Positions 16,307-36,100 of a stretch of 64,000 nt of DNA are shown here, piece after piece. The stretch's first letter is position 1. Every line of letters begins with the position of its first letter. The DNA lies in the NCBI GenBank assembly GCA_017478965.1, contig JAFVCV010000045.1:1-64000 (forward strand). Reading direction: 5' to 3'. This stretch comes from Ruminococcus sp. (lineage in GTDB: Bacteria; Bacillota; Clostridia; Oscillospirales; Ruminococcaceae). Both the position numbers and the translations under genes were made by a program. A model generated the notes under the pieces. The model worked only from the letters and a program-made list of their open reading frames with translations, had not been told where the DNA came from and did not search any database.

Positions 16307-16335
16307 CAAATAAATTGAGGAAGGGGGAAAAAGAC

Positions 16336-16551: not shown

Positions 16552-16604
16552 TAACAGCTGAAATTACAGATTTGCAGGCTCAGGTCGAATGACCCACACA
16601 AAGA

Positions 16605-16663: not shown

Positions 16664-16740
16664 AGGAAAAACAAAAAATGCCTGAAAAATGGCGTTATGT
16701 GGCTAAATAATAATGCTGAATAATGATTTGAGGTGAAAAT

Positions 16741-17415: not shown

Positions 17416-17429
17416 ATTGAGGAGGCGGA

Positions 17430-20400
17430 ATGATGAAAAAAGGCAAAGAGGTGCGCAAGCGGAAGACCCGTCATGAACGGGTAAAGGGCGCCGTATCTGT
17501 TTTTCTGGTCATAATACTGGTACCCGTTCTGCTTTTGACAAGTCTGTTTGTAGACACATCGAGAGTCAAGCTCAGCAGGGACGTTGCAGAATCGGCCTCT
17601 GACCTGGCACTCAACTCACTGATGACCAATTATGATGCTGATCTGAATGAATGGTATGGCATGGTTGCGTCTTGTCAGAATATCGACGATTACTATGCAC
17701 TTTCAGCTCAGTACTTCCTGAGGATGCTGTCTTCGCAGGACCTCAGCACTGATGAAGTTATGCTGCTGTCGGACTATTATGCAGCAGCGACTCAGAATGG
17801 TGCTATATATAACCAGCTGAATGCTTTCCTGGGCGACCTTGATGATCCGGTGGATAATGCCACTGACCTTCTGAAGGTGGATCCTCAGACTCCTGACGAT
17901 CAGATAATCAAGGCAGTTGATAATGGTACCCTGGGTAATGCTACTATGGTAAGGAACCAGGTAGTTGAGTTCATGAAGTACCGTGGCCCAATAGCCATTA
18001 CCGAGACCATACTTGCCAGGTTCGGTCTGGAGGCTGAAAGCGGCGGACTGAGCAACACTCAGGAGGCAAATGTGAACGAGCCGCTGGTAGAGTCCAAGGA
18101 GAAGTTCTATAAGACTGAAGGCGAGTTTATCTCAAAGTGCTATCATACTTATAAGGCTATCAGAAAGTATTCTGATATCAGCCCTAAGGTCGATGATCTC
18201 AAGGCTGACCTGGATAAGCTGGGCAACTATAAAGACGACTATAAGTATTACCATGAGAATACAATAAGGTATCTTTACGATACTAATACCCTCATGAAGA
18301 ACTACATTCCTGCATCTACATCTGATGTCGGGACTCTCAAATCCGGCAGTTACAGCCTTGCGAGCTGCGGTGATACTTACACCAATAAAGATGGTGATGT
18401 GTACCAGATCAGCAAGAGCACTTTAGAGTCACAGATCGATAATCTGAAAAATGCCATCGTGGATTTTGAAAATGAGATGAATAACATCAACGGGAACAGT
18501 GACGTCATCAATGTAGGTAATGATCCCCATGATACGACTACCTCTGACAAGACCAACACTATCCGTTGGTGGAAAAAGGCTGATGGAGTCAGGTCAAGTA
18601 ATTTCGGCAGTATCCAGTCTCTCGGCGATGAGATGATGAAAAGGTACGCTATCTCCAAAACGGGCTGGGAAGATGCTACGCCCATGGACGAAAACGCTAC
18701 CGATTATAAGGATAATGTAAACAACGCAGAAGATGCTGAAGAAAATCCCGGCGAAAGATGGACCATCGGAGAGACAAAGTATACTTATACTGAGCTTTGG
18801 TCTAAGGCCGAAGGTCTTTACGGTCAGTACCTGGACGGTTCACTTGACACAGGAACTGCTTACGGCAAACTTGCTAGTGAGCTGAAGAGCGTAAGCTCTG
18901 ACTATGCAGGCGATATAGATGAGGGCAAGTGGAAGAGAAATATCGACGGCACAGACAGAACAGTCTCTGAGGGCATGGCTTATATCTCGGGACAGGTCAA
19001 CAGCAAGGTCTCGACTCTTAACGATCTTATCACTAAGATATCTGTTCCGATCAACGGCGATGGAGACAAGGTAGTAAAGATCACTGAGCTGGCAACTCTG
19101 GCCGGACAGTATCATGATGACTGTAATGCTTGGAGCACCCAGGCTAATGCTGATGACAATAGCATGCACCTGAGTGACCAGTCAGAGCTTAACAACAGGA
19201 CCGAAAATGATCTTATCAATGAAGTAACAAGTGAAAACTGTACTGCCCTGTCAAACAGGCTCAGCAATATCAAGACTATACTGGAGTCAGTAAAGGGCAA
19301 GTACGACAATACAAAGTACAACGGCACCAGCATAGGCAGCATAAGCACTAAGGACCAGTTCACTACAGCTATGGGCTCTCTTTCCATACCTGAGAAGAAC
19401 GGTGAGCTGGACAGCTATATAGAAACCAAGTTCACTGAATTCTATCAGCCGGACTCTGTTTCCTATCCAGATCATATTGACGATGCAGACTATAATACAT
19501 ATCTTAACGTAACTGATAGTTCTGTTGGTGAGGATATAATACCGCATCTGTATTATTATATGCACCAGAAGTTCAAAAATATAGATTCAGAAGCAGACAG
19601 TGCGATAGATAAGGCAGAAAGCGAACAGGACGCTGCGCAGAGTGCGGCTGACCAGAAAGAGAGCGAGGCCAAGGAAGGCGAGGACAATACGCCTTCATCT
19701 CGATTTGGACTTGATACTCTGAGCGGGGACAAGGACATCAATGATGGCAGTAAGAAATTCAACGGGGCAACTGCGATAGAAGGAATAATCGAGTTCGTTA
19801 CAATGCTTTGCGACGGCGATTTCGACAGTCTTGCCAGAAATTACAGAGATGCTATCCTTACCACAGCATACATAAGGGAAAATCTCACTTTCTCAACATA
19901 TGAGAAGGAAGGAAAGTACAATCTCCTTGAAGATAAGTCCGGGATGAATTTCCTTAACTGTAACAATACTCCTAACAAGTATTACAAGGACCCCGATATG
20001 CTGGGAGATTCTTCAGCAGCTGATCCTTCCACAAACAAGGGTAAGTGGGTCAGCACAGACCTTACGGATACCTACAATAAGACCATGACGAACCATATGA
20101 AGAGTGCAGATAATAACTACGTCTTCAACGGTGAGATGGAGTATATTTTGTATGGTAAAGGCAATAAGTCCAATATGAACAGTGCAATCGGACAGATATT
20201 TACTATAAGATATGCACTCAATCTTGTGTCAGGATTTGCATTGTTCTGGAGTCCTACAAAAACGACAACGGGAGCGGTAATAAATGGAATTGCAGAAATT
20301 ATCCAGGATGCAACATTGGGCATTATTCCAGCGCCTGTTACTAAGGTAATACTTATACCGATACTGACAGTATTTGAGACTGCGATAGATATGGCAAAGC

Positions 20401-20867
20401 TCAAGGCTGGTTTCCCTGTAAAGCTCTATAAGGCTGAAGAAGGTGATTGGGTCATCTCCCTTTCAGGAGGTTCCAGTCTTGGAGATGCAATGAGTGAGAT
20501 GGGCGAACAGGACGGAGAAGGTTCCACAGTGGTCGATGAAGGACTCTTCTACAGCGATTATATCACCCTGTTTACTCTTATCGGTCTGTCGGAAAGCAGC
20601 ACTGCTAAGGCGATGTATGAACGACTGGCGGAAGTGATCGAGTGTAATATGGACCTTGTCATTAACGGTCATGACGCATCGAAAGTATCCAGCAGCGGAG
20701 GATATGCGCTGAAAAAGAGCGTTGTTTACTTCAAACTGGAAGCAGAGATACAGGTAAGGCCTCTGTTGGTGACGCTGCCGATATTTAATGGCTACAGCGG
20801 TACCGAAGCCGCATCGGATACAGACTGGAGGACCTATAAGATCAGCGCAGTAAGAGGATATTCCTGA
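17430..20867 (+). CDS. Large TadG/DUF5702-like pilus-associated protein
   Basis: A 1145-aa protein with a basic N-terminus and one membrane helix (GAVSVFLVIILVPVLLLTSL, about residues 20-42) followed by VDTSRVKLSRDVAESASDLA. That is the pattern of TadG-like proteins, whose external part begins as a helix packing against the pilin. The remainder is mostly helical and polar: coiled-coil-like stretches, an acidic Ala/Glu/Lys region near residues 715-760, and a hydrophobic patch near 925-990. Proteins of this size and place in Firmicutes Tad clusters are recorded as DUF5702 (by recall). No von Willebrand A domain, found in many proteobacterial TadG proteins, was recognised. A role as tip or scaffold of the pilus is inferred. 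Confidence 0.75.
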   Translation: MMKKGKEVRKRKTRHERVKGAVSVFLVIILVPVLLLTSLFVDTSRVKLSRDVAESASDLALNSLMTNYDADLNEWYGMVASCQNIDDYYALSAQYFLRMLSSQDLSTDEVMLLSDYYAAATQNGAIYNQLNAFLGDLDDPVDNATDLLKVDPQTPDDQIIKAVDNGTLGNATMVRNQVVEFMKYRGPIAITETILARFGLEAESGGLSNTQEANVNEPLVESKEKFYKTEGEFISKCYHTYKAIRKYSDISPKVDDLKADLDKLGNYKDDYKYYHENTIRYLYDTNTLMKNYIPASTSDVGTLKSGSYSLASCGDTYTNKDGDVYQISKSTLESQIDNLKNAIVDFENEMNNINGNSDVINVGNDPHDTTTSDKTNTIRWWKKADGVRSSNFGSIQSLGDEMMKRYAISKTGWEDATPMDENATDYKDNVNNAEDAEENPGERWTIGETKYTYTELWSKAEGLYGQYLDGSLDTGTAYGKLASELKSVSSDYAGDIDEGKWKRNIDGTDRTVSEGMAYISGQVNSKVSTLNDLITKISVPINGDGDKVVKITELATLAGQYHDDCNAWSTQANADDNSMHLSDQSELNNRTENDLINEVTSENCTALSNRLSNIKTILESVKGKYDNTKYNGTSIGSISTKDQFTTAMGSLSIPEKNGELDSYIETKFTEFYQPDSVSYPDHIDDADYNTYLNVTDSSVGEDIIPHLYYYMHQKFKNIDSEADSAIDKAESEQDAAQSAADQKESEAKEGEDNTPSSRFGLDTLSGDKDINDGSKKFNGATAIEGIIEFVTMLCDGDFDSLARNYRDAILTTAYIRENLTFSTYEKEGKYNLLEDKSGMNFLNCNNTPNKYYKDPDMLGDSSAADPSTNKGKWVSTDLTDTYNKTMTNHMKSADNNYVFNGEMEYILYGKGNKSNMNSAIGQIFTIRYALNLVSGFALFWSPTKTTTGAVINGIAEIIQDATLGIIPAPVTKVILIPILTVFETAIDMAKLKAGFPVKLYKAEEGDWVISLSGGSSLGDAMSEMGEQDGEGSTVVDEGLFYSDYITLFTLIGLSESSTAKAMYERLAEVIECNMDLVINGHDASKVSSSGGYALKKSVVYFKLEAEIQVRPLLVTLPIFNGYSGTEAASDTDWRTYKISAVRGYS

Positions 20868-20911
20868 TATACAAATTTGACCATGGCAAAAAGGAAAGGC
20901 AGAATTAGAAA

Positions 20912-21616
20912 ATGAAAGCAAATAAAAGAATAATGGCTGCAGCCGCTGCTCTGCTCATGATGCTCACGATGGCATCATGCGGCAGCGGCTCAGATAAGGA
21001 CGACGGAAAGAGCAACAGCAACGCAGCTGCGGCAAATAATGACGAAGGTAAGGGTTCAGACGAGGCAAAGTCCTCCAGGCAGGTCACTGCCGATGAGGTC
21101 AGGGGCCATGCTGAAACACCGGCAAGCGATCTGGAGTATTCAGAATTTGATGACGGTGTGCTTATCAACGGTTACAATGGCAGTGATGATATAGTTGTTA
21201 TCCCTGCTGAGATCAACGGCAAGGCTGTTACCAGAATAGAATCGTATTTTCTTAGAAACAACACTAACGTACTTGGTCTGAAGCTGCCAGCATCGGTCAA
21301 GGAAATACCCGACAGCGGACTGAGCGGACAGAAGTCGATACAGGTTTTGGTTGCAGAAGGAGTCGAGAAAGTCGGTGAGAGTGCTTTTGTAACTCTGCCT
21401 GAACTCAGGATAGTTGATTTTGGAAATTCTCTTCAGAGTGTGCAACCCAATAATTTCATCAACTGCGGAAATCTTGAGTCTATACATCTTCCTGCATCAT
21501 ACACAGGGGATATCTTAGTTAACTATATCGGCAATAAAGTTACTATTATAGGCGAGAAGGGCAGCGTTGCGGAGACTTTTGCTAATGAGAACGGTCTGAA
21601 ATTTGAAGAGGGCTGA
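20912..21616 (+). CDS. BspA-type leucine-rich-repeat lipoprotein
   Basis: A 234-aa lipoprotein with signal sequence and lipobox LTMASC (Cys about residue 23), a low-complexity Asn/Ser/Asp/Lys linker (about 25-65), and an LRR_5/BspA-type region (about 75-230). Repeat lines read IVVIPAEINGKAVTRIES, LGLKLPASVKEIPDSGLS, IQVLVAEGVEKVGESAF and LESIHLPAS. Such repeats are found in surface proteins of gut and oral bacteria that bind host or bacterial partners. It lies inside the pilus unit, 44 nt after the large pseudopilin and 32 nt before the second TadE-like gene, so it probably acts at the pilus base or as a co-expressed adhesin. Confidence 0.82.
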   Translation: MKANKRIMAAAAALLMMLTMASCGSGSDKDDGKSNSNAAAANNDEGKGSDEAKSSRQVTADEVRGHAETPASDLEYSEFDDGVLINGYNGSDDIVVIPAEINGKAVTRIESYFLRNNTNVLGLKLPASVKEIPDSGLSGQKSIQVLVAEGVEKVGESAFVTLPELRIVDFGNSLQSVQPNNFINCGNLESIHLPASYTGDILVNYIGNKVTIIGEKGSVAETFANENGLKFEEG

Positions 21617-21648
21617 CCGATAATTTAAATGTAAATTGAGGTATGAGT

Positions 21649-22893
21649 ATGAAAGACAAAAAAGAAAGAGGTGCTATCGTCGTTGAGGCGACCATAAGCT
21701 TTACTACGTTCATATTCGCAATATTGACAGTCATGCTTATCATCGAGCTTGCCTATGCGCAGGCTAAGATAGGTACTGCGCTGGATTACGCATCGAAGCA
21801 GATGTCGCAGTACTGCTATCTCTATTTTAAGATCGGCGCTGATGAGTGGGACTCAAATCTTTCCAGCGGTACGGCAAATGCAGAGGAGCTGGCTCATTCA
21901 ACTGTGGACGGTTATGCCAGTTTGGTCAACGGTCTGTCGGATACAACGGAGGATATACAGCAGTTTGATTTTGACGGAGTTATGGAAAACGTCCGTAACG
22001 GATCGCAGACGATAGAAGACCTTTATAATAATATCTCCAGTCAGATATCGCAGGATCCACAAGGTTTTGCACTAAGTATGGGTCAGCTAGCTGTTTCAGA
22101 ATTCAAGGAAGAGGCCAAGGTGATCTTTGCCCGAACTCTGGCTAAGACGTTCATGAAGAAGAACCTGAAAGCTTACGAAGGACAGGACGTTGAGTCTTTC
22201 CTTGCTAATATGCACGTTAAACGTAAGGAAGGGGAGACCAGGTTTGACAGCCTTAGCTTTGACGGGACCTATATGCTCCCGCACGGGTCAAATTCCATCC
22301 AGCTGGTATGTACCTATGAGCTGGAGGTGCTGAAATTCCTTAATCTGGATTATAGCTTTAAAATAACTCAGGTGGCAAGGACTGCGGCATGGGGTAACGG
22401 TATCTCACAGATTAATGAGCAGAGTATCTGGGATACGCTCGGACCTCTTGACAGAGGCAGGTATATTGTTGCTGACAAGAAGGAGGCTTATCCTTATACA
22501 GCATATAATGCCGGATTTGATGCTTTGGAAGGAAACACATTCATATCTATAATCAGTATCGATAACATAACCTATAGCAGTTATGGAGATCCTGCTAATG
22601 TTCAGAGGGCTATCAACAATACTTACACTAAGATGTATGATAAAGTGAGCGGTCTTTCAAATGAAGTGACTGTTTATGACAGCTCCGGAAACAGAACGAC
22701 GGTTGAGTCTGACCCATCGTCAAGACAATACAGAATGGTCGTAGTTATTCCTGACGGAGCAGATGAGAGCGTTATAAACCAGGGAATAAGCCAGTTCCAG
22801 AGCCAGCATCCTGAATGTGCTGTAAGACTTGTTCATGGTTATGGCACACCAACTTCCAACAGCAGCTCTGGCGCAAGCTCCGAGGCGGCGTAA
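21649..22893 (+). CDS. Second TadE-like pseudopilin, long form
   Basis: A 414-aa protein with the motif RGAIVVEATISFTTFIFAIL running into one membrane helix (about 8-35), then a large external region ending in a Ser/Gly/Ala-rich tail. The VEATISF motif matches the TadE-type processing region; the Glu corresponds to the Glu5 used in type IV pilin assembly. Its length is about twice that of common TadE proteins. ATG 21649 is preferred to the ATG two codons earlier, which is 1 nt from GAGG. It is followed by a 125-nt gap with a strong hairpin before the prepilin peptidase gene. Confidence 0.8.
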   Translation: MKDKKERGAIVVEATISFTTFIFAILTVMLIIELAYAQAKIGTALDYASKQMSQYCYLYFKIGADEWDSNLSSGTANAEELAHSTVDGYASLVNGLSDTTEDIQQFDFDGVMENVRNGSQTIEDLYNNISSQISQDPQGFALSMGQLAVSEFKEEAKVIFARTLAKTFMKKNLKAYEGQDVESFLANMHVKRKEGETRFDSLSFDGTYMLPHGSNSIQLVCTYELEVLKFLNLDYSFKITQVARTAAWGNGISQINEQSIWDTLGPLDRGRYIVADKKEAYPYTAYNAGFDALEGNTFISIISIDNITYSSYGDPANVQRAINNTYTKMYDKVSGLSNEVTVYDSSGNRTTVESDPSSRQYRMVVVIPDGADESVINQGISQFQSQHPECAVRLVHGYGTPTSNSSSGASSEAA

Positions 22894-23018: not shown

Positions 23019-23831
23019 ATGCTTGGAACCATGTTATATGCACTGCTAATAAATTCGGGCTCAGCAGGGCTTTTATACTATATCGTCAGGAAAAAGCCGT
23101 ATTTTGTCTTTGAAGACGGCAAGGCTGATGACGGTGATAGCGGGGAGCATGAAGAAGGAAAGGCAGAAGAGGTATCGGATGAGTCTGAAGAGAAGTCGGA
23201 GGAATTGTCTGAGAACAAAGATGACGATGATGATGACGATAATGACGATGAGGACACTTCAGAGGACAGAGTAGGAAGAGCATCATTAAAGGAAGTCATC
23301 ATTTTCGGTGCCCTTGCCCTTTGCTTTAATCTGGTCCTTGCTTATTTTTTGTGTAGGCACTATCCTGGAAATTATGTATTCTGCGGTAAGACACTGGCCA
23401 TTTTCTCTATTTTATGGCCGGCGGCTTTTGTTGATTTTAAGGTATACCGTATACCAAATGAGCTGGTTTTGTACGGCCTTGGCCTCAGGGCGGCTGTATT
23501 TATCTACCAGTTGATCTTTGACTTCTCTCATCTCAGAGAAACGATGGTCGAGGATATCGGCGCCGGTGCTATCCTGCTGGTAGCATCGCTCATATGTGTT
23601 TTTATAATGAGAAATTCGATCGGTGCAGGAGATATAAAGCTCTTTGTTGTCATTGGGTTGTGTCTGGGATTGAGCAATATTTTCAGTGCGGTCTTTTTCT
23701 CGTTAGTTGCATCTTTCTTTGTTGCTCTGTTCGTGCTTATAACTAAAAGAAAGAGCCGCAAGGATACTATCCCCTTTGGCCCCGCCATTGCCATTGGGAC
23801 CTATACTTCGATAATTCTTACTTTGTTCTGA
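23019..23831 (+). CDS. Prepilin peptidase (A24 family, TadV/CpaA-like) with an acidic insert
   Basis: A 270-aa membrane aspartyl protease. The two catalytic Asp motifs are present: VDFKVYRIPNELV (Asp139) and GAGDIKLF (Asp205), each at the start of a cytoplasmic segment after a helix. It cleaves the leaders of Flp and TadE-type pilins. Like other TadV/CpaA enzymes it lacks the N-terminal methyltransferase domain of PilD. Unusual is an acidic, low-complexity stretch between the first helix and the rest (about residues 32-85), including a run DDDDDDDNDDED. That stretch would lie beside the membrane and may bind cations or a basic partner. Confidence 0.9.
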   Translation: MLGTMLYALLINSGSAGLLYYIVRKKPYFVFEDGKADDGDSGEHEEGKAEEVSDESEEKSEELSENKDDDDDDDNDDEDTSEDRVGRASLKEVIIFGALALCFNLVLAYFLCRHYPGNYVFCGKTLAIFSILWPAAFVDFKVYRIPNELVLYGLGLRAAVFIYQLIFDFSHLRETMVEDIGAGAILLVASLICVFIMRNSIGAGDIKLFVVIGLCLGLSNIFSAVFFSLVASFFVALFVLITKRKSRKDTIPFGPAIAIGTYTSIILTLF

Positions 23832-23843
23832 GGTGTTTTATAT

Positions 23844-25151
23844 ATGAATAGTTATAAGTTGATCTTCCCTATTGTTATGATAGTCGCTATGATCGGCGGG
23901 ATATTTAATCTGATGAATGCCAGAAAAAAAGAGGTTCAGCAGATAAATGATTCGTTGCAAACTGCCAGAAGCTATGTAGATCAAAAGCTGTATGACAAGG
24001 CGATCGATGAGTATGTGAATGTGATCGACTTGGCACCTACCCTGGAAAACTATAAGGAATTTGCAGAGTTCTATTTCAGCATAGAGAAATATGGGTCGGC
24101 CATAAGTTTAGGCAGTGATATGACAACTCTGTTTCCTGACAATAAGGAGGGCTATGAGTTCTGTTTAAGAGGGTACATGGCCAGAGATGAATACAGTTCT
24201 GCGTTTGAGCTGTATAGGAAATATGCTAATATATGCAAGGAAAACTCTGAATATATTGAAACTACGATAGATAGCCTCAAATATGAATATACGGATGTTA
24301 ATAGTTATGAGATAATAGGTTTCTTTAACAACGGAGTTGCTCCGATGTGCAAAAAGAATCTGTGGGGGTATATCAGTACCAGTGGTTCAGTGTACATATC
24401 TCCTTATTTTAATAAGGTGACACCTATGGTAAGTGAACTGGCTGCTGCTATAGAGGAAGGCGGCCACCCGTGCATCATAAACAGTGATGGTATCAAGGTG
24501 GACAATATCGAGGGAGTAGAAAGTGCTCTGGATATCAGCCTGGTCTATGATGATAAGGTCGCTGTTCTTACTGAGGACGGCTGGGGCTATTATGACGTTC
24601 ACAAGGGCAAGCTCATAGATGGGTTCGAGGTAGCTTCGGCGATGATAGGCGATAAGGCTGCTGTTAAGAAGGGCGGCCAGTGGTACGTTGTCAAGTCCGA
24701 CGGGTCAATAGACCTGAACGGTGATTTTGAAGAGATAAAGATCGACGAAAAGGGAGTTTATACCAGAAACGACAGACTCTTTGTCAAAGAGGACAGGAAG
24801 TATTATATGATAGACGGCAGCGGTAAAAAGATCACCGAGGATGCTTATGAGGACTGCAAGCTGTTCTCAGATGATACTCCCGCAGCGGTCAAGAAAGACG
24901 GCAAATGGGGATTTGTGGATACGGAAGGCACTATGGTCGTTGAGCCTAAGTATGAGGACGCCAGGAGCTTTTCAAACGGTTATGCAGCCGTTAAGCTCAA
25001 CGGCAAGTGGGGTTATATAACCCTGGACGGGTATGATCTTTGCATTGACTATACCTTCGCTGACGCCAGGGATTTCAATTCGGCTGGTTCAACTGTTGTT
25101 AGCTATTCCGGCGGCGACTGGACCCTGATAATGTTCTACAGGTTCCTGTAA
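23844..25151 (+). CDS. Membrane-anchored TPR and WG-repeat protein
   Basis: A 435-aa protein with an N-terminal membrane anchor (about 4-22), a helical TPR-like region (about 30-150, SYVDQKLYDKAIDEYVNVID) and a C-terminal set of WG (KWG) repeats. Clear repeat units are LWGYISTSGSVYISPYF, GWGYYDVHKGKLIDGF, KWGFVDTEGTMVVEPKYE and KWGYITLDG. WG repeats form beta-propeller-like or solenoid structures of mostly unknown ligand, common in Firmicutes surface proteins. It lies between the prepilin peptidase (12 nt upstream) and the FHA gene (44 nt downstream), the junction between the pilus and signalling halves. A scaffold or sensor role is inferred. Confidence 0.8.
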   Translation: MNSYKLIFPIVMIVAMIGGIFNLMNARKKEVQQINDSLQTARSYVDQKLYDKAIDEYVNVIDLAPTLENYKEFAEFYFSIEKYGSAISLGSDMTTLFPDNKEGYEFCLRGYMARDEYSSAFELYRKYANICKENSEYIETTIDSLKYEYTDVNSYEIIGFFNNGVAPMCKKNLWGYISTSGSVYISPYFNKVTPMVSELAAAIEEGGHPCIINSDGIKVDNIEGVESALDISLVYDDKVAVLTEDGWGYYDVHKGKLIDGFEVASAMIGDKAAVKKGGQWYVVKSDGSIDLNGDFEEIKIDEKGVYTRNDRLFVKEDRKYYMIDGSGKKITEDAYEDCKLFSDDTPAAVKKDGKWGFVDTEGTMVVEPKYEDARSFSNGYAAVKLNGKWGYITLDGYDLCIDYTFADARDFNSAGSTVVSYSGGDWTLIMFYRFL

Positions 25152-25195: not shown

Positions 25196-26815
25196 ATGTT
25201 TTCGTATGAAACACAAGGGACGAACACATATCTCGTTTATGAGATACTTGAGGATACCAAGCTGGATTCACTGACCCTTGGTATGCTTATCAACAACAAG
25301 ATCAAGGGTTTTGTGCCGATCTTTTATACTCAGATCAACGACAGGAAGCTGCTGAAGTACAATGTTACCGCCAAGATCCCTTGCAGCCAGTATTTTGCAG
25401 GCACCGTGAACAAGAAACAGATGCTGGGCGTTTTCAAGAGTATTCTTGCGGCAGCTATATCTGCTGAGGAGTATATGATCGAGGTGGACTCGCTGTTCTT
25501 TGACCTTGATTATATATTCGTCAATGTTTCGTCAAGCTCCGCAGAAGTGGTATGCCTGCCTATCATGATCTCAAACGGGATAAGCCTGGTGAACTTCTTT
25601 AAGAACATCGTTTTTTCTACTCAGTATAACCAGAATGAGAACTGCGACTATGTGGCGCAGATAATCAGCTATCTGAACTCCAAGTCCGGGTTCCAGATCG
25701 GGGAGTTCTATGACCTTATATGTCAGCTTGACGGGGATAAGCCCAAGGCGCAGGAAAAGCCGGCGCCCCAGCAGGCAGCACAGCCTGCGGCGCAGGTCCA
25801 GCCCCAGGCGCCGTCAATGTACAGCCAGACTAATCAGGCTGTTCAGCCCGCAAGGAGCAATGTTCAGCCCATGCAGCCTACCAATCAGGTCCAGGGCGGC
25901 TCTCAGGCAGGCATGGTAAATAATATGAATAATACGAATATGGGGAATATGCAGCCTAACAGGCCTGCAATGCCGCCCCAGCAGCCTCCTGTTCAGCAGC
26001 CGGCAGCTCAGCCTGTACAGCAGCCTGAGGAGCAGGGGGACAAGATCTCCTTCATGGCGCTGATGATGCACTATAATAAGGAGAACAAGGAAAAGTATAA
26101 GAAACAGAAGGAGCTGGAGAAGGAAAGGAAGAATTCCGGCCAGGGCGCTGCAGCTCCGGCGGCAGGGTTCGCTATACCGGGCGTTCCGGAGGCAGGACCT
26201 CAGAGCGTTTCCGGCAAGGGACCTTCGCAGCCGGTCAATATCCAGAAGCCGCCCCAGCCTTCACAGCCCGCCGGGGGAAATATGTATGCTCAGGTGAAAC
26301 CTCAGCAGCAGAGTATCCCTCAGCAGCAGGCAATGCCCCAGCAGCAGGTCATGCCGCCGCAGCAGAACTTCAGCCAGCCTGCGCCGCAGAGCTTTAGTCA
26401 GCCCATGCAGCCCCAGGCCCCGGCAGGCGGGTTCGGAGACACTACCGTTCTTAACCAGCCTAAGTCCGCTGCACCTGATACGACCATACTCAGCGAGTAT
26501 AATAAGCAGACCGGTGCGGCCCTGCCTTATCTTATCAGGAAGAAGAACAACGATAAGGTCGTTATCAACAAGAACCTTATCCGTATGGGGAAGGAAAGAA
26601 GCTATGTGGATTATTTCATTCCCGACAACACCGCAGTCAGCAGGGCACACGCCAATATCGTGAGCAGGGACGGCTCTGTTTACGTGGTGGATACCAATTC
26701 GACCAATCATACCTATGTCAACGATCAGATCATTCAGAGCAATGTTGAGATAAAGCTCAATGACGGTGATGAGGTCAGACTTGCTAACGAGGTGTTTACT
26801 TTCCACACAGTTTAA
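25196..26815 (+). CDS. DUF6382-like and FHA-domain protein with TT(V/I)L phospho-motifs
   Basis: A 539-aa cytoplasmic protein in three parts. The N-terminal globular region (1 to about 185) resembles DUF6382, a domain often joined to FHA in Firmicutes. A Pro/Gln-rich linker follows (about 190-410). The C-terminal FHA domain (about 445-539) has IRMGKERSYVDY, AVSRAHANIV and NSTNHTYVN, with the phosphothreonine-binding Arg, Ser, His and Asn residues in place. Just before the FHA domain lie DTTVL (415-419) and DTTIL (428-432). This resembles GarA and OdhI, where a threonine in an ETT motif beside the FHA domain is phosphorylated by a PknB-type kinase and bound by the same FHA domain as an intramolecular switch. 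The kinase and phosphatase genes follow directly. Confidence 0.88.
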   Translation: MFSYETQGTNTYLVYEILEDTKLDSLTLGMLINNKIKGFVPIFYTQINDRKLLKYNVTAKIPCSQYFAGTVNKKQMLGVFKSILAAAISAEEYMIEVDSLFFDLDYIFVNVSSSSAEVVCLPIMISNGISLVNFFKNIVFSTQYNQNENCDYVAQIISYLNSKSGFQIGEFYDLICQLDGDKPKAQEKPAPQQAAQPAAQVQPQAPSMYSQTNQAVQPARSNVQPMQPTNQVQGGSQAGMVNNMNNTNMGNMQPNRPAMPPQQPPVQQPAAQPVQQPEEQGDKISFMALMMHYNKENKEKYKKQKELEKERKNSGQGAAAPAAGFAIPGVPEAGPQSVSGKGPSQPVNIQKPPQPSQPAGGNMYAQVKPQQQSIPQQQAMPQQQVMPPQQNFSQPAPQSFSQPMQPQAPAGGFGDTTVLNQPKSAAPDTTILSEYNKQTGAALPYLIRKKNNDKVVINKNLIRMGKERSYVDYFIPDNTAVSRAHANIVSRDGSVYVVDTNSTNHTYVNDQIIQSNVEIKLNDGDEVRLANEVFTFHTV

Positions 26816-26848
26816 GTTGAACGAAAAAAACTGTAACGAGGTATTGTT

Positions 26849-27616
26849 ATGAATTTTTTGATTTCGGGCAGCACCGATATAGGGCTGGTAAAGCATACCA
26901 ATCAGGACAGTCTGAATGTCAGGGTCTACTCCTCCGGAGAGAGCAGGGTGGTCCTGGCGGTGCTGTGCGACGGCATGGGCGGACTGGAATGCGGTGAGAT
27001 AGCCAGCGCCAGCGTTATAAAGGCCTTCTGCAAGTGGGGCGAGGAGCGCCTGCCTTACTATGTGGCTTATGGGGTGCCGGAGGACGAGCTGAGGGCCGAG
27101 TGGGACTCGATCATCAACGAGATGAACCTGAAGATCAAAAGCTACGGTGCAGGCCGGGGGATAAACCTTGGCACCACACTGACGGCGATACTTCTTACTG
27201 ACAATAAATACGTTGTTGTCAACGTGGGGGACTCCAGGACCTATGAGATATATGACAGCGTAAGGTGCATTACGCAGGACCAGACTCTGGTAGCTATGGA
27301 GGTCCGCAACGGCATAATAACTGAGGAGCAGGCTAAGACAGATCCGAGAAGGAGCGTGCTTTTGCAGTGCATAGGCGCATCAGACAGCGTCAAGCCGGAT
27401 TTCTTCGTCGGGCAGACCAGAGAAAATGCGGTCTATATGCTATGCAGCGACGGTTTCAGGCACGAGATAAGCGAATATGAGATATACAGCGCCTTCAATC
27501 CTGACAATATGCTGTCGGCAGACGCCATGAGACAGAACGAATTGCAGCTGATAGAACTGAACAAGCAGAGAAGCGAGAGAGACAATATTTCCGTTATAAC
27601 GGTAAGGACATATTGA
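26849..27616 (+). CDS. PP2C-family Ser/Thr phosphatase (Stp/PrpC-like)
   Basis: A 255-aa metal-dependent phosphatase. Visible motifs are HTNQDSLNV (metal-ligand Asp20), LCDGMGGLECGE (Asp41-Gly42), NVGDSRTYEI, LCSDGFRHEI and RDNISVITV, all placed as in bacterial PP2C enzymes. It removes phosphate from Ser/Thr of proteins modified by the neighbouring kinase. The spacing between DGMGG and the rest is normal and no transmembrane segment is present, so it is cytoplasmic. It starts 33 nt after the FHA gene and ends 15 nt before the kinase gene, the classical phosphatase-kinase pair seen as stp-prkC. The final TVRTY is the exact C-terminus. Confidence 0.93.
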   Translation: MNFLISGSTDIGLVKHTNQDSLNVRVYSSGESRVVLAVLCDGMGGLECGEIASASVIKAFCKWGEERLPYYVAYGVPEDELRAEWDSIINEMNLKIKSYGAGRGINLGTTLTAILLTDNKYVVVNVGDSRTYEIYDSVRCITQDQTLVAMEVRNGIITEEQAKTDPRRSVLLQCIGASDSVKPDFFVGQTRENAVYMLCSDGFRHEISEYEIYSAFNPDNMLSADAMRQNELQLIELNKQRSERDNISVITVRTY

Positions 27617-27631
27617 TCTTGGGGGGAAAAT

Positions 27632-29335
27632 ATGATTGAGATAGGCTCGCTGGTCGATGATAAGTACAGAGTCCTGAGAGAGATCGGCCACGGGGGAATG
27701 AGCACTGTCTATCTTGCCATCAACGAAAAGGCCAACAAGACCTGGGCGATAAAAGAGGTAAGAAAGACCGGCGTCATGGATTTCGAGCAGGTGACACAGG
27801 GACTGATAGTGGAGACTGAGCTGCTGAAAAAGCTCAACCACCCTAACCTGCCCAGCATCATAGACGTTATAGAGAACGAGGACAGCTTGCTGATCGTTAT
27901 GGACTACATAGAAGGCAAGCCCTTGTCTAAAATACTTGAAGAATACGGCGCACAGCCCCAGGAGCTGGTGATAGGCTGGGCCAAGCAGCTCTGTGATGTG
28001 CTGGGTTATCTGCATACCAGGAACCCGAAGATCATATACAGAGACTTAAAGCCCGCCAATATCATGCTCAAGCCTAACGGGGGCAACGGGCAGAACGATA
28101 TTACGCTGATAGACTTCGGCGCAGCCCGTGAGTTCAAAGAAAAGAACCTGGCAGATACTACGTGCCTGGGTACTATAGGCTATGCCGCACCGGAGCAGTT
28201 CGGCGGCATGGGACAGACTACGGAAAGGACGGATATCTTCTGCCTTGGCAGGACCCTTTACCAGCTGGTAACAGGCTGCGACGCCAGCGAGCTGGAATAC
28301 GGCAAGCCGATCACAGAGATAGATCCTTCGCTTTCCAGCGGCCTGGAAAAAATATTGCAGAAGTGTACACAGCGTGACCCTCAGGACAGGTATCAGTCCT
28401 GTGAGGAGCTGTTGTATGACTTTGAAAACTACAAGACCATAGACGATGCCTACAGGAAAAAGCAAAAGGGCAAGCTGGCGGCGTTCATCACCATGATATG
28501 CTGCTCGGTGCTTTTTCTGGCGGGCGGTTTCGTCCTGAGGGAACTGGCTAAGAGGAACGCTTCCTCTCAGTACGATGTTCTCATCGACCAGGCTGAGACT
28601 GAGGTCGATTACGGTGAAAAGGCAGATATCTACACACAGTGTATAAATATACCCCAGAAAGCCGGGGATAAGAGGGCATACTTAGCCCTTATTCAGGTCT
28701 ATAAGGAGAATGACCAGGTCTTCACTAAGGATGAGGCCGACAATCTGGTCAAGGTAGTGAAGAACAATGAGGAGGAGCTGAAGAAGGATCCGGCAGGGTA
28801 TGCTGAGATATGTTTCGAGATAGGTAAGCTCTACTGGTATTACTACGACGACCCCAATGACCTGACCAAGAGGACCAGCTCGGTGAAATGGTTCGAGGAC
28901 GCTATCGAGTCCGGGGACGAGAGCAGCATACAGATAGGTATGGCAAACGTTTATTCCAGAATAGGCAAGTTCTATTCCGATATTTCCATAAGCGCCATCG
29001 AGGCCAATGACAGAGGCAAGTATAAGCCCTATGTGAACGACCTCAACGAGCTTCTCGACACGGTGGCAGTGGACGAGAACGAGAGCGATATAGTAAGGCT
29101 GGAGCTTTTGAAGCTCACGGCGGACGCTCTTGTGACCTATCCCACCAAGTTCAAGACCGACGGCGTGGAAAAAAAGCAGCTGACCGATATGTGTGATAAG
29201 ATAGAGGATATCAGCAAGACTATCGACCCCACTACTGACCAGACGCAGGAGCTTTACGATAAAGTAGTAAGCAACCTGACCAATGCGAGAAACAGTATCG
29301 AGATCGCTTTCTCCACAAAGCAGAGGGGGGAATGA
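27632..29335 (+). CDS. Transmembrane Ser/Thr protein kinase with an external TPR-like region
   Basis: A 567-aa protein. The kinase domain (about 12-270) has the Gly loop GHGGMSTVYL, Lys41 in WAIKEV, the catalytic loop IYRDLKPANIM (Asp138; Tyr replaces the usual His), and DFG at 161-163 in LIDFGAAREF, then LGTIGYAAPEQFGG. One membrane helix (about 283-304) follows. The C-terminal external region (about 305-567) is helical and TPR-like, with no PASTA repeats, unlike PrkC/PknB. So the sensed signal is probably a protein rather than muropeptide. Targets are likely the FHA protein upstream and the TTVL protein whose ATG lies 1 nt after this stop codon. All catalytic residues are present, so activity is expected. 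Confidence 0.93.
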   Translation: MIEIGSLVDDKYRVLREIGHGGMSTVYLAINEKANKTWAIKEVRKTGVMDFEQVTQGLIVETELLKKLNHPNLPSIIDVIENEDSLLIVMDYIEGKPLSKILEEYGAQPQELVIGWAKQLCDVLGYLHTRNPKIIYRDLKPANIMLKPNGGNGQNDITLIDFGAAREFKEKNLADTTCLGTIGYAAPEQFGGMGQTTERTDIFCLGRTLYQLVTGCDASELEYGKPITEIDPSLSSGLEKILQKCTQRDPQDRYQSCEELLYDFENYKTIDDAYRKKQKGKLAAFITMICCSVLFLAGGFVLRELAKRNASSQYDVLIDQAETEVDYGEKADIYTQCINIPQKAGDKRAYLALIQVYKENDQVFTKDEADNLVKVVKNNEEELKKDPAGYAEICFEIGKLYWYYYDDPNDLTKRTSSVKWFEDAIESGDESSIQIGMANVYSRIGKFYSDISISAIEANDRGKYKPYVNDLNELLDTVAVDENESDIVRLELLKLTADALVTYPTKFKTDGVEKKQLTDMCDKIEDISKTIDPTTDQTQELYDKVVSNLTNARNSIEIAFSTKQRGE

Positions 29336-29336
29336 T

Positions 29337-29867
29337 ATGTCGATAGGATTACAGGAAACACTTTCGATAGTGGCTTTCATACTGGCCGGCTTATTCTTTC
29401 TGACGGCGATAGTGCTGTTCTTCGTGCTGAGGATACCCAATGTGGTGGGCTATCTCACCGGCGCCAACAGACAGAAGGCCATAGATTCCATCAGGAACAA
29501 GAACGTCAACAAGCATGACCTTGACAGCGGCGAGCTTGCGGCTTACGGCACCGTCAGCGGGAACCTGAGCATGACCCAGAAGGTAAGCACCGCAAGACTG
29601 AATGATCTTAACGGTAAGGCCGGTGAGCTGACGACGGTACTGAATGAAGGAAATGCGACCACAGTGCTCTCTCAGACCGCCGGGGCGACCACGGTCCTTG
29701 GAGACAGCGGCGCCACTACAGTTCTGCCGCAGCAGAGCTTTGTACCGGACAGCGGGACGGTGCTTGGCAGCGGAACGGCTCTGGATATGAGCCAGATGAC
29801 AGGCATACAGCCTTTTACGGTGGAGTTTGAGATAAACTATACCGACAGTAAAGAGATAATAGAGTAA
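29337..29867 (+). CDS. Membrane protein with four TTVL motifs
   Basis: A 176-aa protein with one N-terminal membrane helix (about 9-32), a basic juxtamembrane segment, and a cytoplasmic tail. The tail holds TTVL at residues 99-102, 108-111, 118-121 and 127-130, about every nine residues, and a related SGTVL at 139-143. The TTVL core is the same as the DTTVL beside the FHA domain three genes upstream. My inference is that these threonines are kinase targets and docking sites for FHA domains, making this a multivalent membrane recruiter. No named family was recognised. Start ATG 29337 has GAGGGGGG just upstream and lies 1 nt after the kinase stop codon, so it is translationally coupled. Confidence 0.8.
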   Translation: MSIGLQETLSIVAFILAGLFFLTAIVLFFVLRIPNVVGYLTGANRQKAIDSIRNKNVNKHDLDSGELAAYGTVSGNLSMTQKVSTARLNDLNGKAGELTTVLNEGNATTVLSQTAGATTVLGDSGATTVLPQQSFVPDSGTVLGSGTALDMSQMTGIQPFTVEFEINYTDSKEIIE

Positions 29868-29882: not shown

Positions 29883-30122
29883 ATGAGCAGGACCAGAGTG
29901 CTGATGATATTGCAGATAGTTTTTGCAGTGCTGCTGCTGATATCTGTGATACTGATGAAGAGAGCGAGTATGCTCCGGCTGGCCACCGGCTCGGGTCTGC
30001 CGCTGATACTTAATGGTACAGCGTTCTGGGCAGGACTTATAGGGACTGTCACAGTGGCAGTTTTAAGGATAAAGAAAAAGGCGGACAAGGACAAAACGAC
30101 ATCTCACGGAAGGAAGAGGTAA
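29883..30122 (+). CDS. Small two-helix membrane protein
   Basis: A 79-aa protein with two membrane segments (about 6-24 and 38-60) and a basic C-terminal tail (RIKKKADKDK...). It has a good RBS (AGAGGG) and is tightly placed, 15 nt after the TTVL protein and 3 nt before the giant gene, which supports it as a real gene. No family recognised. It might aid insertion or anchoring of the giant protein, but this is only suggested by position. Confidence 0.75.
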   Translation: MSRTRVLMILQIVFAVLLLISVILMKRASMLRLATGSGLPLILNGTAFWAGLIGTVTVAVLRIKKKADKDKTTSHGRKR

Positions 30123-30125: not shown

Positions 30126-33100
30126 ATGAGGAACGAAAAAAGACTCTCCCAGAGAATAACTTCATTCATGCTGGCAATGCTGATGTTCTTATTCACATTT
30201 GCTGATATGCCAGTCGTTTCAGCAGAGCCTGAAGAGGAAGAAGCGACGGTCAAGTCACTTGTAGTCGTTGTCAGGGACACTGACGGCAATGCTATAAGTG
30301 ATGCTGATGTTAAGGTGAAAACAGCCTCTGTCGGTGAAATGAGCGCAGCTTCTAACAGCAGCGGCGAGGCTGAGTTCAGCGAGTTTTTCTCTGACACAGT
30401 GATAGATGATATCACTGTAGAGTACGAGGTGAGCTGCTCGGGATATCTGACCAATAAGGGGTCGGTGGACGTCAATGCGATAAAGGACTCCGGCAAGCTG
30501 AACAAGGTACTGCTCAAAGAAGGCTCTGAGAACGAGATAACTCTGGATTATCTGGGTATCAGCGGCACGACTGTGACCTATAATGAAGGTGTTCAGTCGC
30601 TTGTGAAACTGGACCCGGAAAAGACCTCAGAAAGGTCAGGCTATGATCTCAAGTATAGAGTAAATATGTCTGAAGAAGAAAACGAGGCAAAGGCAAAAGA
30701 TGCCAGTGATGGCTTTTATAATGTTACAGTTAATGTTTATGAGAAAGACACTTCCACGCTTATTAAGGCTCTGGAACTCTATTCTGTCATAGAGAAAAGG
30801 TCTGTACAGCTCATGTTCAGCAATTCTGAAATAGACGAAAAGGTCGATGATCCTCAGGACTATACTATCAATAATAAGGTCTCCGATACCGGAGTGACTG
30901 GAGTCGAATATTCCATAGTTGAAGATACATGTGCTGTGGATGCGGTCATAGACAGCGGCACAGGTGAGCTTACTTTTAAGAGCGAGGGTTCAGTGGTCGT
31001 CAAGGCAGAGGCCGCTGATACTACCAACTACAAGTATGAGCCGGCGTATTATACAGCTACTGTAAACAAGAAGAATGATTCAGAAAATGAAGTGTTTGAA
31101 AAACACAGTTTCAGTATACTTTTGAAGCACGGTGACGAATCTAAGAGCTTTGGCGTTGCTTTTTCTAACTCAGGAAATAAAGACATCACTATCGAAATTG
31201 ATAATGAAGATGTGGTAAAGAATAATTCATTGTCCGGAGAGAAGTACTATTTTCAATTCCTTGCTGTAGGCCCTGGAAAGGCTACTGTCAAAGCTTACTC
31301 TGGATCAGAGCTGCTGGATAGCTTTGAAGTCAATGTAACGAAACAGTATAATCTGGAGTTCAGCGATGAACTTAAAGACTTGACTGTCGGTGATACGGTC
31401 GATGTATTGAAGAACGTTCCTGCTGCGATAGCAGATGATCTTAAATACGAAGTGGGCAGCGGGTGCAATATAGAAAACGGCAAGTTAAGATGCACTTCTC
31501 CCGGAAACTATACTGTCACCGTATCGCTGAAGGATAGCGCAAGCGAATTCTACGTAGTTGAACCTATAAAGAAGAACTTTACTGTGACCGGCGGCGCTCT
31601 GGGCGCAAGCATAGAGGGCGGAAATAAGATCTCACTGCCGCTCAGTGTTTCTGATAGAGAGATCACCCTTATCGCAGAAAGCTCCAATGGAGTCAGCGGC
31701 ATAGGTATCAGTGCAGGCACTGTGACAAGTGACGTCTGCATGGCTGACGGTTCCGAGGCTCCTGCCGGTGCGCAGCTGGTAGAGGCAAGCGGTAATAAAC
31801 TCATTGTGAAGGCCGGTATGTTCGGTACTGCGTATATCCCGGTCACTTTCAGCAAGAGCGGGTATTCAGATGAGACAGCAACGCTGGTTTTGTCTGTAGT
31901 GATGAAGGAAGAGTCAGGGCTTTATACAGTCACGTTGGAAAATGATGACAACAATACCCAAGTGGGCAGGTCGGCAACTATAAAGGCCAAAGAAAGCAGC
32001 TCGAAAGTTGGCTTTAGTTACCATGAAGGTTCATTCAAAGATCAGCTTTCATATTCCAACGAAGGTAAGTGTACCAACAGAGTATATGTGCAGAAAGAAA
32101 GCGGCGAGATAGTACTCAGTGACAAGTGTAATTTTGCCATAGATACTACCGGACCTAAAGCTACTAAAATGTCGAGTGCTGTTTCTGGCATAGAAGTTGG
32201 TGGAGATTTAGAAGCAGGTTACACTTTTACACCTCAGAACAGCGACGACGAAGTTTCTCCCGTAAAAGCAAAAATATTTGCAGATGACATTGGTACATAC
32301 ACTTCAGGGATAAAGAGGTTTGTTATTGAGAAGAAGGGTGAAGACAGTTCATATTCCTACTGGTCCGATGCTACTGATCTATCGGGATCGGGGGATACGT
32401 ATCAGGCATTTGTAACTGTTAACGAAGAAGGCGAGTATAGAGTTTATGCTGTCGATAAAGCTGGTAATAAGAGCAATGCTATAAAATTCACAGCAAAAAT
32501 AGACGGACAAAAGCCTACAGTAGTAATAAGCAAGATAGATGACGATACAGTCCAGGTCCAGGTGACTGATAATAACCTTGATGTAAGCAGTTTTGAAGGT
32601 ACGATAACCAAGAAGGTATATGACGGTACAGAAGATGGTGGGGATATAGAAACCACTATTGCTTTCAGCACGCTTACTTCTGACGGTTCAAATGTATATA
32701 CTGCGTCGGCATCATTGACAGGCCCCGGCATATATCATATACAGGCGAGCTGTAAGGATGATAACGGTAACCCGGGCAGCGATTCTAAGGAATACGTTAT
32801 CTCAGATGAATTTGATGCCGCTGACGGTTCAGCCAGTGTTAAAGGCTCAGAGATAACAGATTATACGTATAAAAATACCGAATACCCTGATTATGACACC
32901 TGGCCATATTATAAGGGTTTAGTAAAACTCAATATCAATCTGAAAAAGTTCGTTGATGTTGGTAAGATCTCTATAGAGGTAAATGTTTACGATCAGAAGG
33001 GCATACCCAGTGGAGAGGAAAGCACCTATTATCTTGGCAGCTCTCTGAAGACCAATGACGAGGCAAGATCAAAGAACACGATACCGCGCAGAGAAAGATG

Positions 33101-36100
33101 GAAAACTACTGTCGTAGACGATGCAATAACCGAGCTAGTGGGTACTGGCGTTGTCGAGTTCCAGAAAGACGGATATTATGTTATCAAAGTTAAGTACGAT
33201 GACGTTGTTTTCGATACTGTAAAATTCTGTGTTGACAACAATTCTGAGCTGACATCAGACAATAAGAGCGAGTTCATCTCCTATGAGTTTGTAGAGCCGA
33301 GGATCACAGACGTAGTTCTGAACAACCTTACCTTCGGTCTGTATAAACCTACCGTAAATGCAAAGGTATATGTAAGAGACGATATCACAGATGTCCAGAG
33401 GATCGGCTATTATTTAACTGATGTTGACGGGAATGATCTTACAACGGAGGAAACGGTAGATGTTTCAGGGTATCAGCATAAGACCAGGGAAATAACCTAC
33501 GACGGAAAGACCTACACCGTTTACTATAAGGAGATCGATATCAGCTTTGAACCCGGCACCTTTGTGGGCAAGCTGGTAGTAAAGGCTTATGACGGCGCAG
33601 GAAATGATATAAGCACCAATGTTTGCGAGAATTTTACTTCGGCTTCTGAGGATAAGAAACTTGACGGTTTAGCTGTTGATAAGGATGAACCGGTGATAAG
33701 TTTCACGCATTATGCTGACGAACATCTGGAATTTGACAGCTACGTGACAAGTTATAAAGAGTATAATTTCAGGATCATAGACAATCTTTTTGATCAGAGT
33801 GATAATGCGGAACAGATCATAAGGGATCATCTTGAACTGACACTAAATGACGGTGCGTTTTTGTATTCGTCGCATAATATCGATGAGAATGATAGGTCGA
33901 AGGTGATCATCACCAAGGAAAGCGATACTGAGTACAGTGTAAAGTATATATATGACGAATATGGTTACAGCAAGCTGACAGCTAAATACACAGACCTTGC
34001 CGGAAACTCTGTCAGCAGTATGCAAAAAAAGTATATCGTTGATGCATATGCGAAATATGAGAGCAAGGTTAGTGGTAACGTACTGGAGGGCAGCTCTGAG
34101 AATACTTACATCGGTGATGTGCAGTATTATTTCAGGTCAGGTTCCTGCATTAGTACAGACCTTCTGACTGCAAAAGTAACTGTTACGGATGTTAACGGCA
34201 ATTCCGTTATCGGCGAAGAGGACAGCGATACTTTCAAGGCTTATAATGAGAAACTGAACGATTATATCCACGATAATAACAACTGGAATACCGGGCTGAC
34301 TGAGATAACTATCAAGGATATGTTCACTTATGAAGGCCGGTATGATGTGAGGATCTCATACAAGACGGGCAAGAGCACAAGCAAAGAAGTTTCCAGTGCG
34401 CAGTTTATTGTTGACAGTAAGAAACCTATAGATCTGTCACTGAAGGTAAAGGATATCACGGTATCCGAGACCTTTGATCTGACAGAGCTTGATCCTAAGA
34501 ATTTCGTATTCTTCAAGAACATCGCTTATGTTGCCATCAGTGCTTTTGATAAGACCTCAGGTATCGACCGTGTCGAGTATGTGCGTGTTGATGCAGTGAC
34601 CGGCGATAAGTATAACGGCACTTTCAGGCCAGGGGACAGTGGCGTTTCTGTCACAGACGGCGTTCTGACCTGTGACCTGGATGTTCCCCCCAACTATAGG
34701 GGCGATGTGGTCATCAAGGTCTTTGACAAGGCCGGTAATTATGAGAGTGCAAGTCTGTCGGGTATGTCGGAAAATCAGACCCTGGTTGTAGATGACAAGG
34801 AACCTGATATCAACGTGGAATACGAGAACGAGCCTGAGGAGTTCGGTCAAGGCAGCGTTCACTACTTCAACGGCAAGCGTACTGCTACTATCACTATAGC
34901 AGAGAAAAACTACTTCAATGACGATAGGATCACCGTCAAGGTGGGCAAGAGGTATCATAGTGATGAGGAGTACATTTATAAGGAATATCCACTCGAACTG
35001 GATAGCACTGACAAAAAGGACCCAAAATATACCTGCAAAATCGAATTTACTGAGGATGCAGAGTACAGTCTCGAAATAAAGGCTGCAGACTACTCCGGTA
35101 ACAGCAGCAGCTATGAGAAAGAGTTCATCATTGATACTGTTGAACCGGTATTTACTGTTGAGTACGACAATAACGATGTTTACAGCGAGGGCGAAGAGGC
35201 TTTCGTCAATGCAGGCCACAGCGGTGAGACTTATGAGAATAAGTATTACAAGGCTGACAGGACCGCAACATTCACTCTGGTGGAGCGCTATCCAGTATTC
35301 ACCAGGATCGTGGATGATAAGTACTATCTGAATACGGATATACTTGTCAGGACCGACGGCACTCAGTCATTTGCAGCTCAGAACATCGAGCTTGAATTTA
35401 CTAAGACCGGCGCAGACACCTACACAGCAACTTATGAGTTCAAGGCTGATGAGACTGCACTTACCAGAGATTTCAAGGACTTCAAGGCAGCCATCAAGGA
35501 CACCACAGACCATGCTGCCGAGATAACCGACACATTCACTGTTGATAAGAAGGCTCCTGAGATCGATATAGTCTTCGACAACAACGAAGGCCGTGACGGA
35601 ACAGAGTTCTACAAAGGAGACCGTAAGGCTACCATGTCTATTGACGAGGCTAACTTCGATGCTGACGACGTGGTGCTCGTAATCAGGAAGAACGATAAGG
35701 CCATCGAGAAGGACCTGAAGTGGAAGGACGGCCCGGAGACTAACGGCAATCACCATGTGATGACCTATGATTTCAAGGACGATGCAGACTATGACATAAG
35801 CTTAGACTACACCGACCAGGCAGGAAACGCAGGCGTAAGTAAGGACACCAGCTTCACGGTGGACAAGACAGCTCCTGTTATAAAGGTTTCCTACGACAAC
35901 AACTCTGTTCTCAACGGTAAGTATTTCAAGGCGGACAGAACTGCCACCATTGAGATAACCGAGCATAACTTTGATCTGGATAAGCTGGAAGATGTGGTCA
36001 TCACCGTGACACTTGACGGTACGGAAGACAGCAGATTTGCAGATATTGTCCATGACAGAACAAAGTGGACCAGTGACGGCGATGTTCACACTGTCAAGAT

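Follow-up and report, generated by a model that had tools for sequence, protein, structure and literature searches.

Does a short threonine motif carried by two neighbouring genes let a kinase decide where an FHA protein docks? The question is raised by a locus of a Ruminococcus sp. genome, on the forward strand of contig JAFVCV010000045.1 (assembly GCA_017478965.1), of which we analysed positions 1 to 64,000 (the window); the window is part of a 93-kb contig, in an assembly of 2.69 Mb that is 92.8% complete. An FHA-domain protein (J), a PP2C-type phosphatase (F), a transmembrane (TM) kinase (D) and a small membrane protein (K) are encoded there in a row, between genes of a Tad pilus and the gene of a giant surface protein (I). 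J, F, D, K and I are lettered after predicted components of type VIIe secretion (T7SSe), by the text descriptions in passages of PMC11217815 and not by published Tse sequences. An original prediction had read the four genes as a phosphothreonine switch with a core motif common to J and K. The open reading frames (ORFs) and Pfam agree with its FHA protein, PP2C, transmembrane kinase and TTVL membrane protein, including the 1-nt gap before the last, and the DTTVL and DTTIL that it had placed before the FHA domain, as well as the four TTVL of the membrane protein, were all located. We find that the motif is conserved, with threonine as its fixed residue, and we suggest that it probably serves a kinase-controlled phosphothreonine docking switch.

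The motif in J and K

The four genes and their motifs are the following (aa, amino acids).

25196..26815, plus strand: J, 539 aa, TseJ-like, with DUF6382 (residues 4-159), a Pro/Gln-rich linker and an FHA domain (463-529) (Pfam, alignment, phmmer)
26849..27616, plus strand: F, PP2C-type Ser/Thr phosphatase, TseF-like (Pfam, NCBIfam, phmmer)
27632..29335, plus strand: D, Hanks-type kinase with a single TM helix around residue 284, TseD-like (Pfam 160 bits, phmmer 3.5e-127)
29337..29867, plus strand: K, 176-aa single-TM protein, helix at about residues 11-29, tail with four TTVL (phmmer)
26441..26452, plus strand: J motif 1, the TTVL of DTTVL, T416 (T416 and L419 invariant across an alignment of 11 sequences)
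26480..26491, plus strand: J motif 2, the TTIL of DTTIL, T429 (T429 and L432 invariant across the same 11 sequences)
29631..29726, plus strand: the four TTVL of K, residues 99, 108, 118 and 127, starting at 29631, 29658, 29688 and 29715 (codons)

The ATG of K lies at 29337, a single nucleotide (29336) past the stop of kinase D, and the ORF list puts the start upstream, at 29283. K matches no Pfam family in a scan of the window's proteins. In J, T416 and T429 stand 47 and 34 residues ahead of the Pfam FHA start at residue 463, and 28 and 15 residues ahead of Pro444, where the J relatives align again.

Such a density of motifs is not expected from composition. Four TT[VI]L in the 176 residues of K were equalled by none of 50,000 shuffles, the highest of which held two, and the two in the 539 residues of J were equalled by one of 50,000. 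Genome-wide, the codon pattern of the motif occurs at 325 sites, against 436 for a reversed control, which rules out the motif as a genome-wide feature; the TTVL cluster is therefore local.

Conservation of the motif among related loci

Of 197 genomes of the family, 24 had DUF6382, as had 37 of 394 in an order draw and 127 of 391 in a class draw; these draws overlap. From part of the DUF6382 genomes 120 stretches were taken, nine of them flanking pieces, and 101 stretches plus the window had a usable J. We sorted these into class A (58 J with no kinase, meaning none within the fetched stretch), class B (21 with a kinase but no K) and class C (23 with K). A scan of named genomes gave 129 loci, of which the best 80 were added; J is present in 76 of them and K in 54, three of the latter lacking a usable J; the best J relative among these 80 is from a Ruminococcus sp. 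metagenome-assembled genome, at 49% identity. The named loci were selected by the FHA patterns GKE[KR]SYVD and DTNSTNHT, so that some FHA residues are fixed in that set. Pooling the loci with both J and K gave 74 entries, and after dropping 11 near-duplicates 63 non-redundant loci remained, 40 named and 23 of class C. Gene labels in the fetched loci rest on our own loose profiles, of which those for TadB and TadC cross-match.

The homologues have kept the TT(V/I)L motif on which the original prediction was built. In its strict form, T[TS][VI]L, we found it at 104 sites in J linkers (55/63 loci) and at 85 sites in K tails (42/63 loci), where 300 shuffles gave means of 0.58 (maximum 3) and 1.28 (maximum 5), respectively, and five scrambled orders of the same letters gave 0 or 1 match each. 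The broader form T.[VILMFC][LI] is common to the FHA protein and the membrane protein almost throughout, with 138 sites in 62/63 J linkers and 181 sites in 61/63 K tails (shuffled means 14 and 22). Looser controls yield some matches as well: S.[VILMFC][LI] gave 8 in J and 15 in K, and T[VILMFC].[LI] gave 23 and 27.

The consensus is E-T-x-V-L. When the surrounding frame [ED]x[TVSAEM][VIL]L is held and x left free, x is Thr in 104/108 cases in J and 113/118 in K, and Ser in 0/108 and 0/118, while the J linkers contain 1311 Ser against 947 Thr and the K tails 699 against 797. FHA domains are described as specific for phosphothreonine in passages of PMC3953482, and selection for Thr only is therefore the expectation for an FHA reader. 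Leu occupies position +3 in 106/111 (J) and 119/128 (K), and position +1 tolerates many residues, in K above all. An alignment of 11 J, the linkers of which are otherwise barely alignable, has T416, L419, T429 and L432 invariant and the second Thr variable. The core motif is thus most simply described as T-x-V-L with Leu at +3, and the likely phospho-acceptor would be its first Thr (T-x-[VIL]-L). This modifies the idea of TTVL as a docking motif: the shared motif is conserved, and its core is recast around the first Thr, not TTVL as such.

Copy number differs between the partners. In 53/63 J, the last 45 or so residues ahead of the FHA-profile start contain exactly two motifs; in K the number ranges from 0 to 6, with three copies in 25 loci. 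Two further features are seen among K proteins such as the window's, namely a tail end in E-[VI]-[IV] (40/63) and a TE[KR]-like box (27/63).

The putative FHA reader, the kinase and the phosphatase

In the J of the 63 loci with K the FHA pocket is, by alignment, largely kept: G465, S482, H485 and N504 are present in 63/63 and R483 in 61/63, counts that the search patterns partly fix for the 40 named loci and that are free of this for the 23 loci of class C. The window's J has all five of these residues. By sequence the best solved FHA match to J is Bdellovibrio DgcB (8.9e-7), and GarA and OdhI are also among the solved FHA matches, so that the comparison with these two drawn in the original prediction was an apt one. 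Against the NCBIfam OdhI model (NF041660) J scores 33.8 bits, below the cut-off of 200. For the other domain of J, the idea that DUF6382 might be an EssB-like pseudokinase was rejected, as a search with its profile gave no solved structure as a believable relative (best E 0.42).

The J linker contains TM helices in 49/58 J of class A (mostly loci L124-L182), in 0/23 of class C and in 0/51 named J with K. A TM-bearing J and a K never occur together in the loci seen (52 TM-bearing J and 63 K in 142 rows). This exclusion rests on few changes in the tree (TM 4, K 11; FastTree), with no pair test significant, and it is weakened by J that have neither TM helix nor K, 27/79 in classes A and B and 25/25 among the named loci, some of them at contig ends.

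The gap between the kinase gene and K is -11 to 17 nt in 47/54 pairs of the named loci. The activation loop of D reads DTTCLGT, and the form [DE]T..[LIM]GT is found in 60/61 kinase loops; the loop of D resembles the E/D-T-x-V-L motifs of J and K. By the title of Villarino et al. 2005, cited in PMC2784874, PknB is said to recruit GarA via activation-loop-mediated interactions, and by analogy D could recruit J through contacts of its loop. F scores 168.9 bits with the NCBIfam Stp1 model, below its cut-off of 230.

A proposed docking switch and its alternatives

On these grounds we favor the following scheme. Kinase D would phosphorylate the first Thr of each E/D-T-x-V-L, both in the tail array of K, which is predicted to lie on the cytoplasmic side, and in the linker of J, and the FHA domain of J would bind pT-x-V-L. 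Docked on the multi-copy array of K, J and the cargo held by its DUF6382 would be brought to the membrane near the Tad machine (elsewhere the T7SSe machine) and the giant surface protein, and may in this way act on the pilus or the surface protein. When J binds its own linker instead, it would be self-occupied, or else joined to other J molecules, a direction of switching that we infer. The PP2C phosphatase F would reset the switch.

Several observations weigh against this scheme, and some of them speak for other uses of the motif. The first concerns the acceptor. T[VILMFC][LI] is nearly as frequent as T.[VILMFC][LI] (119 and 138 matches, respectively, in J; 125 and 181 in K), and because TTVL contains both T-x-V-L and T-V-L, the second Thr may be the acceptor instead. 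Txx[LI]GT loops are common among Hanks kinases, which makes the resemblance of the D loop to the motif weak evidence. The reader is not quite canonical: the phosphate-binding Arg at position 466 is Lys in 59/63 J, the window's included, and Arg in 2.

A second set of observations concerns the pairing of J with K. Motifs of J and K from the same locus are more alike than under random pairing (0/5000 reach their similarity), but not more than when J is paired with the K of the nearest relative (30 up, 27 down, 4 equal, p = 0.32), and for this reason we do not claim co-variation of the motifs beyond phylogeny. Moreover, one motif before the FHA domain is found also in 50/58 J with no kinase in the stretch, and two in a further 4, so that a single TxxL there is near-universal in J without a neighbouring kinase or K. 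Both findings, and the presence of GarA and OdhI among the solved matches, would suit an arrangement of the GarA/OdhI type only, in which J, phosphorylated in its linker, shuts its own FHA domain, and K is a separate substrate with a reader of its own, on which J would never dock. We regard such a separation of J and K as unlikely, as J is the single FHA match in the whole assembly (Pfam), and yet the K array keeps the Thr-only consensus of J.

A third set concerns the pocket. Of the 58 J of class A, 36 have Gly in place of the pocket Ser, and the motif is retained in all 36 of these. It could accordingly be asked whether the motif is a strand or docking peptide that works independently of phosphorylation, as the unphosphorylated tail of DgcB also sits in the FHA cleft according to passages of PMC6733907. 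Set against this are the complete lack of Ser for Thr at position 0 (0/226), with +1 far freer, and the kinase and phosphatase genes adjoining J, and we hold a phosphorylation-independent peptide to be very unlikely. As Gly-pocket J of class A keep the motif, we take one TxxL before the FHA domain as an older trait of the family; by comparison of the sequences it is the second motif copy and the K array that arrive with the module, in a contrast between class A and class C that is confounded with phylogeny.

Lastly, two loci depart from the shared motif. In L043 the K (5189-5617) has no TxxL, and its J (9035-10669) has seven matches, two of them overlapping. In L046 the K (5496-6026) has four NTVL repeats, each with a single Thr, and the J linker none; the kinase of this locus lacks the T..LGT loop, which perhaps reflects a changed specificity. 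The seven matches of L043, like the two that most J have before their FHA domain, exceed what a one-to-one lock in cis would need, and they would suit chains of J, in which two motifs and one FHA domain would allow head-to-tail assemblies of phosphorylated J, nucleated by the K arrays, as a scaffold and not a shuttle. We rate such chains as quite unlikely, and retain the docking of J on K under the control of D as the favored reading.

Neighbouring genes and the relation to T7SSe-like loci

The remaining genes of the locus are the following.

12038..22893, plus strand: Tad pilus genes (Pfam)
23019..23831, plus strand: A24 prepilin peptidase, between the Tad genes and J (Pfam)
23844..25151, plus strand: WG-repeat protein, between the Tad genes and J (Pfam)
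29883..30122, plus strand: small membrane protein, 79 aa, H79 (phmmer 5.1e-10 to a 161-aa protein of locus L103)
30126..39068, plus strand: I, TseI-like, 2980 aa, with bacterial Ig-like domains and a TM helix at the C-terminus (Pfam Big_13 8.1e-16, phmmer)

The order on the plus strand is thus Tad cluster, prepilin peptidase, WG-repeat protein, J, F, D, K, small membrane protein and I. The intergenic gaps are 44 nt before J, 33 before F, 15 before D, 1 before K, 15 before the small membrane protein and 3 before I. The Tad genes encode a TadZ-like protein, a CpaF-type ATPase, two T2SSF-type proteins, a Flp1-like protein, TadE, a Tad/DUF5702 protein and another membrane protein. Pfam finds the pilus components TadZ, CpaF, TadB/C, Flp, TadE and the A24 peptidase. 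The first T2SSF match, at 21.0 bits, and the Tad match, at 22.1, are slightly below their cut-offs of 25.2 and 22.3, and the protein at 21643-22893 has no match above cut-off. Inside the cluster lies a BspA-type leucine-rich-repeat protein with the N-terminus of a lipoprotein (20912-21616). A consensus scan revealed a stem-loop of 17 pairs (22942-22978) that separates the last Tad structural gene from the part running from prepilin peptidase and WG gene through J to I; it could be an internal attenuator. A24 peptidase and WG-repeat genes adjoin J in many related loci too.

Among the predicted T7SSe components of PMC11217815 are TseJ, TseF, TseD, TseK, TseH and TseI, and in passages of this source the question is raised of control of some type VII secretion system (T7SS) subtypes by threonine phosphorylation, and the reality of the link of T7SSg and T7SSh with Tad is left undecided. 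By the descriptions in those passages the window's set is alike: a DUF6382 and FHA protein, a PPM phosphatase, a TM kinase, a single-TM protein with an unstructured cytoplasmic part and a large Ig-like protein. The window's K fits the descriptions of TseK and TseH alike.

Following those descriptions, three fetched loci, L100, L103 and L104, were taken as T7SSe-like. FtsK/SpoIIIE is clear by Pfam in L100 (2e-32), weak in L104, where the stretch end cuts the protein, and not detected by Pfam in the cut piece of the L103 protein; each of these three proteins has an FHA match at or near the Pfam cut-off. YukD was found in both loci tested, L100 and L103 (Pfam), and a WXG100 gene lies within L100; the genomes of L103 and L104 have one on the contig of the locus, at another place. 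J, F, D, K and I of the window are homologous to those of the three loci and stand in identical order (phmmer 8.6e-7 to 7.1e-255). The matches range from 6.3e-39 to 3.4e-33 for J; they are 6.5e-12, 4.8e-10 and 8.6e-7 for K, and for I 7.1e-255 to protein L103_7 and 2.6e-90 and 3.9e-80 in L100 and L104. The 161-aa relative of the 79-aa protein is a membrane protein that occupies the corresponding place in L103; in L100 and L104 no counterpart was found between K and I.

Zinc-ribbon genes are inserted after J in L103 and L104. L103 3036-3695 and L104 13305-14114, 14131-15300 and 15488-17206 encode membrane proteins with an N-terminal zinc ribbon and the motif right after it (GETSLL, GTTVLNQ and EETTVLD; the Pfam ribbon is above cut-off in the first two and just below in the third), and these are possible further clients of the FHA reader. 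In addition, a second, shorter DUF6382-FHA protein stands beside a CpaE/TadZ-profile match in each of the three loci (L100 3278-5388, L103 15653-17644, L104 2344-4329).

The window differs from the T7SSe of PMC11217815, as described in its passages, in that its module lies downstream of Tad genes and neither WXG100 nor an EssC-like ATPase is found in the assembly. The WXG100 family (PF06013) has no match in this 92.8% complete assembly, and FtsK (PF01580) matches one frame above cut-off (906 aa, contig C15) and weakly the CpaF gene; with J as the sole FHA match, no EssC-like ATPase was found, and we reject T7SSe membership for this assembly. WXG100 was not found in 16/23 class C genomes, the window's included, so the module is seemingly not tied to T7SS. 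In this genome it seems to work without T7SS, beside Tad. By the loose profiles, at least two of CpaF, TadB and TadC accompany K within the stretch in 38 of its 54 named loci, and some of CpaF, TadB, TadC, A24 and WG in 48.

The prediction had also called the system one not known as described. This needs correcting for the set of proteins, the parts of which fit predicted T7SSe components in passages of PMC11217815; the motif was not found in its main text, where the string TTVL has 0 occurrences. In the open-licence PMC literature, DUF6382, T7SSe and an FHA domain with a Tad pilus are treated in PMC11217815 only, and we found nothing there on TTVL with FHA phosphorylation, on the Tad pilus of Ruminococcus with a threonine kinase, or on the control of this surface machine of gut Clostridia.

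Comparison with known systems

Dozens of related genomes have kept the motif, and this conservation hints at an on/off control of a cell-surface machine that is so far unstudied. The motif is a concrete link between the FHA protein and its membrane partner, in T7SSe-like and Tad settings alike, and it provides a testable peptide, reader, kinase and eraser for a surface machine of gut Clostridia. As a tentative extension, E-T-x-V-L could be a portable address code of Clostridia, by which a kinase/phosphatase pair plugs the DUF6382-FHA adaptor into multivalent membrane platforms, K as well as the zinc-ribbon membrane proteins of T7SSe-like loci, and the same module may drive a T7SS or a Tad pilus. 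The adaptor without K often has TM helices of its own, and under such a code K would swap this built-in anchor for a switchable one.

Precedents for parts of the proposed switch are described in passages of the papers cited here. In GarA and OdhI the protein's own N-terminal phosphothreonine is bound by its FHA domain, and Ser/Thr kinases and a Ser/Thr phosphatase are involved (PMC2784874). J is like them in having a Thr motif N-terminal to the FHA domain (T416, T429), and unlike them, as there described, in having DUF6382, two copies of the motif and an array-bearing membrane partner. DgcB, the nearest solved FHA domain by sequence, has its own tail as ligand, through pTSIV, of which the +3 Val is held in a pocket (PMC6733907), and so resembles J in an own-tail phosphothreonine ligand with a hydrophobic +3; it differs in its GGDEF-enzyme output, and the passages describe no membrane partner array. 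In the Agrobacterium type VI secretion system the kinase PpkA phosphorylates a Thr of the membrane protein TssL, the FHA protein Fha binds it and the machine is activated (PMC3953482). K is like TssL by description, not by sequence: the passages give a single site, Thr14, on TssL, whereas the system of J and K has arrays, its reader also carries the motif, and its setting is Tad or T7SSe. By analogy, then, docking on a membrane protein would have its precedent in PpkA-TssL-Fha, and own-tail binding in GarA/OdhI and DgcB.

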